39,442 nucleotides of DNA from Planctomycetota bacterium (GTDB taxonomy: Bacteria > Planctomycetota > Phycisphaerae > FEN-1346). Location of the stretch: the NCBI GenBank assembly GCA_016872895.1, contig VGYT01000005.1, positions 1-39,442 of the forward strand, in the 5' to 3' direction. Made by a program: the position numbers and the translations under genes. The notes under the pieces were generated by a model. The model saw only the letters and a list, made by a program, of their open reading frames with translations, was not told where the DNA came from and made no database searches. Shown in pieces: positions 24,015 through 27,467 of this stretch. Every line of letters starts with the position of its first letter. Position 1 is the first letter of the stretch.

Positions 24015-25154
24015 CTAAGGCACTTCCACCACGCTGTTCAATTCACCGTATGGATTGCTCTCGACATAAGGATTGGCCGGGTCGCTCGTCCAGCGGCCGT
24101 CGATGATAAGGCGGTAGGCGTACCGGCCGGCTGGCAGGCGGACTTCCTTGGTCCAGACGCCAGGCTGGTCGGTGGAGGCCATGTCGGCGTCGGGGGTGGT
24201 GGCCCACTGGTTGAAGTCGCCCGCCACCTGGACGCGCGCGGCGCCCGGCGCGTTGCAGACGAAGCGGACGCCGTCCTCTATGGGGATGGCGCCGTAAACC
24301 ATTTCGATTTTTTTATCGACCGCCTTCTCGCGGGCCTGGTGGTCGCGGACCTCGCGGCGTGCCATTTCCTCGTACTCCAGTTGGAGGCCGGCGGCCAGGA
24401 GTTCCTGGGCCAGCGTCCGGTAATCCTCGTGGCCGCGCGAGTTCGGGCTGAACTCGGCGATGGGGCTGCCCATGGCGGCGGCCTCGCGCAGGCCCACGTG
24501 GAACCGGATGACCGTCTCGAGCATCGTCGGGCCGTGCTGGTTCCGCAGCGCCGCCAGCGCCCGGCGCATGGTCCGCGCCCGCGTGTCGTACATCGTGGCG
24601 AGGACACGCACGACGGGCTGGCGTCCGATGCGTTCGGCCACCGTCTCGATCGTCTCGACCGTGCGCGCGAGGCCGTACGTGCTGAAGAAGCCCAGGTCCA
24701 CCGGCACGAGGACTTCGTCGGCGGCCACGATGGCGTTCATCGAGAGGATGCCCAGGCCCGGGCCGCAGTCCACCAGCGCGACGTCGTAGCGCTTGGCGGC
24801 CTGGTCCAGCGCCCCGCGCAGGCGCAGTTCGCGGCCGTCGGTGCCGGCCAGCGTCTGCTCGAGGCTGGCCAGGCCGACGCTCCCGGGCGCGAGGTAGAAA
24901 CCGTCGACGACTTCCCAGGCGATGTCTGGAAGGCCGAGCGGCCCGCTCTCGCCGCCCTCGCCTCGCATGACGTGCCACGTGCTGAGTTCCACTTCGTCTT
25001 CGCGGACGCCGCAGCCGATGGTGGCGTGCGCCTGCGGGTCAAGGTCCACCAGGAGCACCCGCCGCTTGGCCCCGGCGAGCGTGGCAGCCAGGTTGATGGC
25101 CGTCGTCGTTTTGCCGCATCCTCCCTTATGATTGAATATGGTGATAACGCGCAT
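24015..25154 (-). CDS. ParA-family ATPase fused to C-terminal glycogen-binding AMPK1_CBM/CBM48-like domain
   Basis: MRVITIFNHKGGCGKTTTAINLAATLAGAKRRVLLVDLDPQAHATIG and ALVDCGPGLGILSMNAIVAADEVLVPVD; C-terminus GVRFVCNAPGAARVQVAGDFNQWATTPDADMASTDQPGVWTKEVRLPAGRYAYRLIIDGRWTSDPANPYVESNPYGELNSVVEVP. Confidence 0.9.
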   Translation of the reverse strand: MRVITIFNHKGGCGKTTTAINLAATLAGAKRRVLLVDLDPQAHATIGCGVREDEVELSTWHVMRGEGGESGPLGLPDIAWEVVDGFYLAPGSVGLASLEQTLAGTDGRELRLRGALDQAAKRYDVALVDCGPGLGILSMNAIVAADEVLVPVDLGFFSTYGLARTVETIETVAERIGRQPVVRVLATMYDTRARTMRRALAALRNQHGPTMLETVIRFHVGLREAAAMGSPIAEFSPNSRGHEDYRTLAQELLAAGLQLEYEEMARREVRDHQAREKAVDKKIEMVYGAIPIEDGVRFVCNAPGAARVQVAGDFNQWATTPDADMASTDQPGVWTKEVRLPAGRYAYRLIIDGRWTSDPANPYVESNPYGELNSVVEVP

Positions 25155-25387
25155 GGCCCGCCTCCCGCCCGCCGGCACGGCGAACAGCCGCGCGGCAGTC
25201 ATCCCCTCGCATTATCAATATTGAAAACGGACGTGTACATTCCCAAGTACGTGCTTCGGTCCATGGCCGGCGCCTTCTTGGGAGAACTTATCGGAGGCCG
25301 AAACAGAAGTCAACAACAATCTGTTGGGGGCTGGCAGGAATCGCGCCATACGGCCGCGAGAGGGCCCGCACTCCCGGGGCCCGGCCG

Positions 25388-25432: not shown

Positions 25433-25734
25433 CGGACGGAAGGAGAAGAGGCACATGCGGGGCCTATCGCGAGGCTTTTCCGCAACGTCAGTCTCCGTCA
25501 GGCAACGTTGGCGCAACTGCCTGCAAATACAGGCTTTACGCGGTGCTCATTCTCCGATGCTCTTCGGGCTGTTGCCAACCGTAAACGTGGCGGGAAAACG
25601 CCGGGCTGGGCGCGAGAAATCCCCGGAGATTCTCAGGCCGGTAAACCCTTGATTTTGCGCGAGTTACGCGAGCGCGCTCGAAAAGCCGGTCGCCGGCGAC
25701 CTGTTGGCACGGCGATTGCTCAGATTCGGATATC

Positions 25735-25850
25735 TGGCTCGTTCTTTACAAGGCATCGCTTGTGACTTTCCGCACAGCCCTCCCCCGGGTGCGACAAGTC
25801 TCCAGGCGCTTTGCCACACAACCCCCTTAACTCCCATAAAGAACGAGCCA
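25735..25850. repeat. 116-bp segment bounded by 14-bp perfect inverted repeats
   Basis: TGGCTCGTTCTTTA (25735-25748) / TAAAGAACGAGCCA (25837-25850). Confidence 0.8.
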
Positions 25851-26007
25851 CTTGCGAGGAATCGCCCCGCAAGGGGCGTTGCGGGCGGTTAGACGGGTTT
25901 GTTGCGGGTCAAAGAAGTTGCGGGATAGTGGAGGGTCTACAGGTCAGACCAGCATGCCGAGTGCCAAGCCAACCGTTCCACACACAGAACGTTCGGCGGC
26001 ACAGGCC

Positions 26008-26111
26008 TGCGGGGATCAGCGGACCCGAAAATTGACGGATGTAGATCTCAAGTAGCCGTCTATCCCCGCAACACGGGCAGGGCCTCCCCTCCGGGCCTTG
26101 CCCATTTTTTT
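26008..26111 (+). ncRNA. Candidate structured RNA or leader ending in an intrinsic terminator
   Basis: TGCGGGGAT (26008-26016) / ATCCCCGCA (26062-26070) closing an inner GACGG...CCGTC hairpin, followed by the 26075-26111 terminator; no ORF upstream on this strand. Confidence 0.35.
26075..26111 (+). terminator. Rho-independent terminator-like hairpin with T-run
   Basis: GGGCAGGGCC...GGGCCTTGCCC followed by ATTTTTTT. Confidence 0.65.
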
Positions 26112-26144: not shown

Positions 26145-26166
26145 ACCTGCCTGCCGGCAGGCAGGT
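26145..26166. repeat. 22-bp perfect palindrome ACCTGCCTGCCGGCAGGCAGGT
   Basis: Uninterrupted self-complementary 22-mer; flanked by GCATGCCC / GGCATGC. Confidence 0.85.
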
Positions 26167-26276
26167 ACAGCGCCGTCGGCATGCCCACCGTCCTCCCCTC
26201 TTCTTTCCGGGAACCTCCGGGCGCACGGCAAGTCTAACCCTTCGGACGACACAGGCTGCGGTTGGAGGGTTCGGCG

Positions 26277-27467
26277 ATGGCCGGGCTACGGGTGAGGCGG
26301 CTGGGATGGCTGGCCGGCGTTTGCGTGGCCGCGACGGCGGCCGCGGCGCTAGTTGCGTGCGCAGCATGGGGTTCCTACATTGAGGAGGAGTTCCGAGGCG
26401 GAACGTCGGTTGTCCGCCCGCCGCCAGCGCCTCCGCCCCCATCGCCGCTCCCGCCGACCCACCGCCGGCCGCCGCCCAGCCATCACGTGCCGGAACTCGC
26501 GCGGCTGCTGGAGCGGCTTGAGCCGCGGCGGCCGCTCGTCTGCGGCCGGCTGGCGGTGTATCCGATTGCGGCGCGGGGGGGGAGCGACCTGGGCGGCCGC
26601 TGGCTGACCATGGACGCCGCCCTCGCGCGGGGCCTGCTGGCCGTCACGGAGCGCGACGGCGGGGGCAGCGTGCCCGTCATCCGCCTGGAGAACCGCAGCG
26701 GGGCCGACTACATCTTCGTCATGGCCGGCGAAGTTGCCGCCGGAGGCAAGCAGACCCGTACCCTTCGCCAGGACGTCATCCTGGCGCCGAAGCAGCGCAT
26801 CGAGGTGCCCGTCTTCTGCGTGGAACAGCACCGCTGGAGCGGCAAGGCCGAGTTCAGCGCGGGGGGCATGCTCGTGCCGCAGTCCATCCAGCGCGAGATG
26901 CGCAGAGGGGCCGACCAGGCGTCGGTGTGGTCCGAGGTCGACCGCGCGGCAGGCGCGCTGGGCGCGCGCAATCCCACGAGCAGCCTGGAACTGGCGATGA
27001 AGGCCGCGCCGGTGCAGCGGGAACTGGACGAGGTGCGGCGGATAATCATGCCCGAGGTCCCGGCCGACAGCATCGGCTTCGTGCTGGCCGACCGCTGGAC
27101 CGGCCGCGCGCTGGGCGGCGAGTTCTTCGGGCGGTCGGACCTGGCGCTGGCGCTTCTTCCGAAACTTCTGGACGCCTACGCGGTGGACCTTGTGCTGCCT
27201 CACGGCCGCGAGCGGCCGGCCGGACGCCCGCCCGACGAGACGATCGCGTGGGACTTCATCGGCCGCATACGCGCCGCAGGCAGCCACCGCACGGGCACGC
27301 CCGGCTCGGGCGAGGGCATCGGGATGCGGGCCGGCGGGCTGGTGGGCGACGGCGTGGGGCTGGGCGGCGTGCTCGTCCACTTCGGATGTCAGGCCGAGGA
27401 CCAGATCGTGCCGATGCCGATGCCGATGCCGATGCCCGGGCCGCGGCCGCCGGCGTACCGCGAATAA
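26277..27467 (+). CDS. ARPP-1-like domain protein, exported (signal peptide/lipoprotein-like N-terminus)
   Basis: RBS GGAGGG; GRLAVYPIAARGG...RWLTMDAALARGLLAVTERDGGGSVPVIRLENRSGADYIFVMAGEVAAGGKQTRTLRQDVILAPKQRIEVPVFCVEQHRWSGKAEFSAGGMLVPQSIQREM matches the ARPP-1 pattern as I know it. Confidence 0.6.
   Translation: MAGLRVRRLGWLAGVCVAATAAAALVACAAWGSYIEEEFRGGTSVVRPPPAPPPPSPLPPTHRRPPPSHHVPELARLLERLEPRRPLVCGRLAVYPIAARGGSDLGGRWLTMDAALARGLLAVTERDGGGSVPVIRLENRSGADYIFVMAGEVAAGGKQTRTLRQDVILAPKQRIEVPVFCVEQHRWSGKAEFSAGGMLVPQSIQREMRRGADQASVWSEVDRAAGALGARNPTSSLELAMKAAPVQRELDEVRRIIMPEVPADSIGFVLADRWTGRALGGEFFGRSDLALALLPKLLDAYAVDLVLPHGRERPAGRPPDETIAWDFIGRIRAAGSHRTGTPGSGEGIGMRAGGLVGDGVGLGGVLVHFGCQAEDQIVPMPMPMPMPGPRPPAYRE

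Follow-up and report, generated by a model that had tools for sequence, protein, structure and literature searches.

A large regulatory RNA gene of one planctomycete order with a predicted sigma-54 promoter and a promoter signature shared with groES-groEL

The small regulatory RNAs (sRNAs) of the LhrC type in Listeria monocytogenes are encoded in several copies and are induced by envelope stress via a two-component system, and each of their UCCC sites is able to bind a target at its G-rich Shine-Dalgarno region (PMC4132741). Exposed UCCC loops of RNAIII from Staphylococcus aureus take part in target binding at Shine-Dalgarno sequences, as cited in the same paper (PMC4132741). Sigma-54-dependent regulatory RNAs include the free-standing CrcZ and CrcY of Pseudomonas and Azotobacter (PMC6296734, PMC6292655), as well as the Qrr and GlmY/GlmZ sRNAs, which are under the control of an enhancer-binding protein (Qrr1: PMC10162802). 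In Planctomycetota, sigma-54 control of GroES/GroEL has been predicted (PMC12316311). Here we analysed a window of 39,442 nt from a Planctomycetota bacterium (contig VGYT01000005.1 of assembly GCA_016872895.1, forward strand; all coordinates are window positions unless a genome is named). Judged from sequence, the segment displayed above lies within a gene whose product is a large, free-standing regulatory RNA; to date this RNA has been found in a single planctomycete order only. The gene, its promoter and a signature of co-regulation make it very probable that this is a sigma-54-controlled sRNA gene. The predicted product is a trans-acting RNA of about 380 nt that belongs to a family new to Rfam.

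The RNA resembles the LhrC- and RNAIII-type RNAs in being, by its sequence, an independent gene with its own promoter and terminator, and it shares with LhrC the presence of several C-rich motifs in loops and linkers that are predicted to be accessible. However, no sequence relationship to LhrC was found (no Rfam match). The RNA is also much larger, would depend on sigma-54 and has been found only in planctomycetes, and its pairing is a prediction. Like RNAIII it is large and multi-domain with exposed C-rich loops, but it shows no homology to that RNA, which additionally codes for a peptide and is under a different control system. CrcZ is of similar length and of the same free-standing, sigma-54-dependent type; in contrast to the present RNA, CrcZ acts on Hfq/Crc, whereas Hfq was not found in the eight genomes compared here, and our motifs are C-rich rather than A-rich. 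The Hfq-linked Qrr and GlmY/GlmZ RNAs are shorter, and their structure and targets are unrelated. The CrcZ/CrcY systems differ further in the upstream sites, since CbrB binds non-palindromic subsites (PMC6296734) and the promoter of the present RNA is preceded by 27-bp dyads. The protein half of the regulon described below agrees with the sigma-54 prediction for GroES/GroEL, although the main text of that study mentions no sRNA (PMC12316311).

Conservation and structure of the RNA gene

Eight genomes of the order of the window were compared, all of them draft or metagenome-derived so far as named: family f1 comprised the window and five relatives, and family f2 two genomes (individual genomes are given below by handles such as G001). 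Window DNA gave matches in each of the five relatives from its family, with E from 1e-29 to 1e-40, and weak ones in the two genomes of the other family. Nine copies of a 116-nt domain (domain I) could be aligned with more than 50 invariant positions, and CCCUCCCCCGGGUGCG was identical in 9/9. In the structure of this domain, 94.8% of the cells were paired compared to at most 44% when the partner was slid, and 19 cells were compensatory (both sides changed) against 5.8 in shuffles. The stem of the terminator hairpin also covaried, with 8 compensatory cells vs 3.2 shuffled. Folding beat dinucleotide shuffles, with z = -3.68 for 25850-26111 and z = -5.63 for 25910-26111. A structured non-coding RNA had been proposed at this place by an earlier sequence-only reading, and the better-than-chance fold and covarying stems bear this out. 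Its boundaries (25850-26111) had to be moved, however, as the gene starts about 120 nt further upstream and the most conserved domain lies at 25735-25850.

The covariance model of domain I (R1) matched 8/8 genomes of the order, with E from 1e-17 to 1e-29. No match was found in 389 other genomes of the class or in 391 other genomes of the phylum sample. Covariance-model searches over more than 40 genomes were run with stricter filters; with looser filters R1 matched 0/38 class genomes, and an empty outcome in such distant searches does not prove that homologues are absent. When GTDB genomes were scanned by pattern, the carriers were planctomycete metagenome bins, and the pattern matches outside Planctomycetota were rejected as chance because none fits R1. 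A plasmid search gave no match.

At the curated threshold no Rfam family was found anywhere in the window. At a permissive threshold the RNA region gave only chance scores, at most 17.5 bits against cut-offs of 38-100 (best: 17.5 vs 80), and the seven relatives yielded no credible family. Among the approaches to which the sequence-only reading had pointed, the Rfam search named no family and the comparison of relatives found conserved structure. 6S RNA (RF00013) was considered and rejected, as 6S scores elsewhere in G001 and G002, both of which carry the present RNA. A conserved peptide was also rejected; no intergenic open reading frame is conserved as protein, as the earlier claim of no credible frame had it, and the few tblastn matches are antisense to the conserved terminator hairpin. 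About 250 nt past the RNA gene in G001 (L004:1313-1369) we observed a sub-threshold match to the Acido-Lenti-1 RNA (28.8 bits vs a cut-off of 37).

We also considered a functionless chance structure in GC-rich intergenic DNA. This would fit the frequency of terminator-like sites in the region, which are no commoner than chance (1 found in a simple scan vs 2.4 expected). The terminator of the sequence-only reading is present (stem at 26075-26103 and T-run) and is unremarkable by itself; its conservation across relatives is what makes it remarkable. Conservation, covariation and promoter architecture over eight genomes stand against chance, and the R1 matches together with the promoter-dyad signature described below refute it in practice, leaving it a negligible probability.

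The coordinates of the gene and its parts are given in Table 1. The outer stem of domain I is a 14-bp perfect inverted repeat (25735-25748/25837-25850). Further downstream, the sequence-only reading had drawn a 9-bp stem TGCGGGGAT/ATCCCCGCA (26008-26016/26062-26070) around an inner GACGG/CCGTC pair. Both pairings exist in the sequence, but the 9-bp stem occurs in the window only and is not conserved. In the relatives and in the minimum-energy fold of the window it is replaced by pairing of CCCCGCAAC with upstream copies of GUUGCGGG, two of which (25878 and 25901) are present besides the one at 25917, and several upstream partners GUUGCGGG(G) are possible for the 3' strand UCCCCGCAAC. This variable 3' domain is much shorter in G004 and is replaced in f2. 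In five of the six f1 copies it contains GGAGGG, which could pair with the C motifs; a start codon after GGAGGG is not conserved among these five.

The terminator T-run is present in 6/6 f1 genomes. The f2 genomes keep the hairpin and its C-rich loop without the T-run, and the loop therefore seems to have been retained for a purpose beyond termination. One sigma-54 promoter in G007 is followed by two complete RNA units and by a further 3' hairpin, the third, which is degenerate (L007/L044, G007:C47), and this tandem array ends in a strong hairpin GGGTCGTCCGG/CCGGACGACCC with a T-rich tail.

Table 1. Position and basis of the features assigned to the RNA gene and its surroundings
Feature	Position	Strand	Basis
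RNA gene, ~380 nt	25731..26111	+	conservation, fold, promoter/terminator; 5' end inferred from promoter (~12 nt past the -12 element)
Domain I, 116 nt: 14-bp outer stem TGGCTCGTTCTTTA/TAAAGAACGAGCCA, inner stems, apical hairpin	25735..25850	+	covariation; model R1
Invariant CCCTCCCCCGGGTGCG, with apical loop UCCCCC (C motif 1) at 25781-25786	25778..25793	+	identical in 9/9 copies
AACCCCCUUAACUCCC, long single-stranded stretch within domain I (C motif 2, linker AACCCCCUU)	25820..25835	+	AACCCC invariant
Small hairpin CGCCCC-GCAA-GGGGCG	25863..25878	+	other five f1 copies: CGCCC/GGGCG-type, differing short loops
Variable 3' domain closed by GUUGCGGG (25917-25924)/CCCGCAAC (26066-26073)	25917..26073	+	fold, comparison of relatives
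Intrinsic terminator: 3' hairpin and T-run, with the C-rich loop UCCCCUCC at 26085-26092 (C motif 3; CCCCUCC)	26075..26111	+	covarying stem
Sigma-54 (-24/-12) promoter TGGCACGGCGATTGCT; +1 expected near 25731	25705..25720	+	consensus TGGCA[CT]-N5-TTGC[AT]
Activator-type site 1, 27-bp dyad GCAACTGCCTGCAAATACAGGCTTTAC, starting 192 bp before the -24 element	25513..25539	+	palindromic weights
Activator-type site 2, GTAAACCCTTGATTTTGCGCGAGTTAC, starting 64 bp before the -24 element	25641..25667	+	best-scoring site
Extracytoplasmic function (ECF)-like promoter GGAACC-N16-GTCTAA of ARPP-1, outside the RNA	26210..26237	+	pattern only; downstream of terminator

Sigma-54 promoter and the signature shared with groES-groEL

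The sigma-54 consensus was found in 8/8 genomes of the order at an equivalent place, 71-94 bp upstream of the invariant CCCUCCCCC. Its flanks and spacer bases vary, which suggests that the element itself is under selection. RpoN is encoded in 8/8 genomes (positive control included), and no recognisable Hfq was present in any of the eight, where the positive control worked.

Two dyads precede the promoter, an arrangement that is usual for sigma-54 activator sites. Their consensus is close to GTAAsnCnTTG-N5-CAAnGnsTTAC and the position weights are palindromic. Strict matches numbered 11 in 8 x 420 bp of upstream DNA vs 0.29 in shuffles. For site 1, 6/8 genomes had the same type of 27-mer as a strict match between -192 and -196; the site was weak in G001 and was not recognisable in G007. 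For site 2, the best-scoring site lay at -64 to -67 in the eight genomes and was weak in G001 and G007. Tandem palindromes of this kind have been described as typical of sigma-54 activator sites (PMC6296734).

The promoter together with its proximal dyad was searched for, as a relaxed pattern, across the eight order genomes (31 Mb), with the reversed pattern as control. Of the 15 matches, eight belong to the RNA genes, six to promoters of groES operons and one to a site in G007 ahead of a gene for a predicted secreted protein, and the reversed control gave 0. On this tally we read the RNA as an sRNA of a sigma-54 stress regulon. Since the groES operon is preceded by the same type of promoter and dyad, protein-folding or similar stress is the probable condition under which the RNA is made.

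The groES-operon signature was seen in G000, G001, G002, G005, G006 and G007; the dyad lay at -65 or -66, and the promoters were verified. In the remaining two genomes, the operon is close to the end of a contig (G004) or the other groES copy is the only one present (G003); second groES copies were without the signature. In G000 the signature-bearing operon encodes a stand-alone receiver-domain protein first and GroES second (Pfam), followed by a GroEL-like frame. In family f6 of the same class, the dyad and sigma-54 promoter stand just before groES in G020/G029 (L104, L106), with no receiver-domain gene between. No R1 match was found in these f6 genomes, which points to a chaperonin regulon that predates the RNA.

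Three further observations concern this signature. In L070 (G007:C27:218689-218767) a dyad and a sigma-54 promoter precede a predicted secreted protein starting MKYALLAVAALVVLSS, a possible third regulon member in G007 only. In L065, L072 and L073 a conserved palindrome CTGCCA-N2/3-TGGCAG followed by TTTTGGCAC lies about 140-165 bp upstream of the groES-operon sigma-54 promoter, and probably gives the chaperonin operon a second regulatory site. In family f10 the dyad plus sigma-54 pattern occurred 20 (G015) and 8 (G024) times per genome, far above the rest of the class, which would fit either a regulon that has expanded or another activator whose site is similar.

C-rich motifs and the proposed action of the RNA

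The mean unpaired probability of the whole RNA was predicted at 0.36-0.41 in the eight RNAs. C motif 1 (UCCCCC) had an unpaired probability of 1.0 in 8/8 RNAs, C motif 2 (AACCCCCUU) of 0.89-0.99 in seven RNAs, and C motif 3 of 0.88-1.0, with 1.0 for the run CCCCCC in the 3' loop of G004. The placing of these sites in the apical loop, the linker and the terminator loop matches the LhrC layout, on the basis of which we propose repression by pairing.

From transcription and stress signal to mRNA pairing and repression, we infer the following course. An activator would bind the two upstream dyads and sigma-54 RNA polymerase would transcribe the RNA, which would be switched on together with GroES/GroEL under protein-folding or similar stress. 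The rigid domain I would expose the UCCCCC apical loop and the single-stranded AACCCCCUU, and the 3' hairpin would expose its CCCCUCC loop. These three C-rich sites would pair with G-rich (Shine-Dalgarno-like) ribosome-binding regions, and translation would be repressed while the chaperonin is raised. A sigma-54 stress RNA that represses mRNAs via C-rich sites is the best explanation as a whole and a reasonably likely one, with the pairing mechanism itself judged slightly to the favourable side of even. More tentatively, and with somewhat less than even confidence, the RNA may be an order-specific stress RNA recruited into an older sigma-54/chaperonin regulon, which on protein misfolding acts without Hfq to lower the translation of many mRNAs whose ribosome-binding sites are G-rich.

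Several points weigh against this account. The covariation comes from few independent changes because only eight genomes (nine copies) exist, and under the alignment used inner helix 3 is fully paired in family f1 only. The G006 fold leaves C motif 2 only half open (0.46), and the C-rich loops could instead bind a protein. Pairing of a C motif with a Shine-Dalgarno-like sequence is also near-trivial to find, and is indecisive without conserved targets.

Protein binding is the basis of a sponge, in which the three C-rich sites (in multiple units in G007) would sequester an RNA-binding protein in the way that CrcZ/CrcY titrate Hfq. The sigma-54 control, the size of about 380 nt and the repeated short motifs recall CrcZ, and the tandem units of G007 would raise binding capacity. 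However, with Hfq in 0/8 genomes, motifs that are C-rich and unlike the A-rich Crc/Hfq type, and no candidate C-binding protein identified, we regard a sponge as unlikely. A structural or scaffold RNA, whose fold rather than its loops would be functional, for example as partner of a stress protein or the ribosome, appears less probable again. Domain I is very stable and the invariant apical hairpin includes the stem side GGGUGCGA, but invariance is concentrated on the exposed C-rich segments and this hairpin, the outer stem varies freely with compensation, and G004 and f2 can dispense with the 3' domain.

If the RNA represses mRNAs through its C-rich sites, it would be an RNA arm of a sigma-54 proteostasis response. 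Our literature search found no dedicated study on regulatory sRNAs in planctomycetes, on which little seems to be published, and no description of a chaperonin operon and a non-coding RNA coupled through sigma-54 in the literature searched. The RNA gene is lineage-wide and well delimited, and its promoter, activator-type sites, co-regulated operon and candidate loops can all be read from the DNA, which makes the signal, the activator and the targets directly testable.

Neighbouring genes

In f1 the RNA is flanked by a ParA-like gene on one side and by ARPP-1 (at 26277 in the window) on the other, and the sequence-only reading had left two options, a terminated small RNA or a riboswitch/attenuator of 26277. 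A leader of ARPP-1 would be in keeping with the shared strand, the terminator between the two and the neighbourhood conserved within f1. However, ARPP-1 probably has its own promoter, the separate ECF-like site beyond the terminator, and a site of the GGAAC-N16/17-GTCTAA type was also present in G003, G004 and G005, three of the four relatives with the ARPP-1 gene that were compared. In f2 the RNA persists, with ARPP-1 replaced as 3' neighbour by a gene on the other strand, which from its sequence we take to be endonuclease III (nth). This gene is convergent with the RNA, so that the RNA cannot be its leader, and no fixed same-strand downstream gene exists. The regulated promoter that the RNA has in common with groESL and the lack of any Rfam riboswitch also speak against a leader, which is very improbable. 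The terminated small RNA agrees with the sigma-54 promoter of its own, the terminator, the covarying structure and a conservation that does not depend on which gene lies next to it.

A short repeat-like palindrome, CCTGCCTGCCGGCAGGCAGG, was observed at 26147-26166, downstream of the RNA terminator and ahead of the ARPP-1 promoter. On the other side of the RNA, the ParA/MinD-type ATPase (24015-25202, minus strand) carries a C-terminal fusion to a glycogen-binding module (AMPK1_CBM/CBM48, Pfam E 4e-11), and near full-length homologues with about 70% identity are present in G002, G004 and G005.
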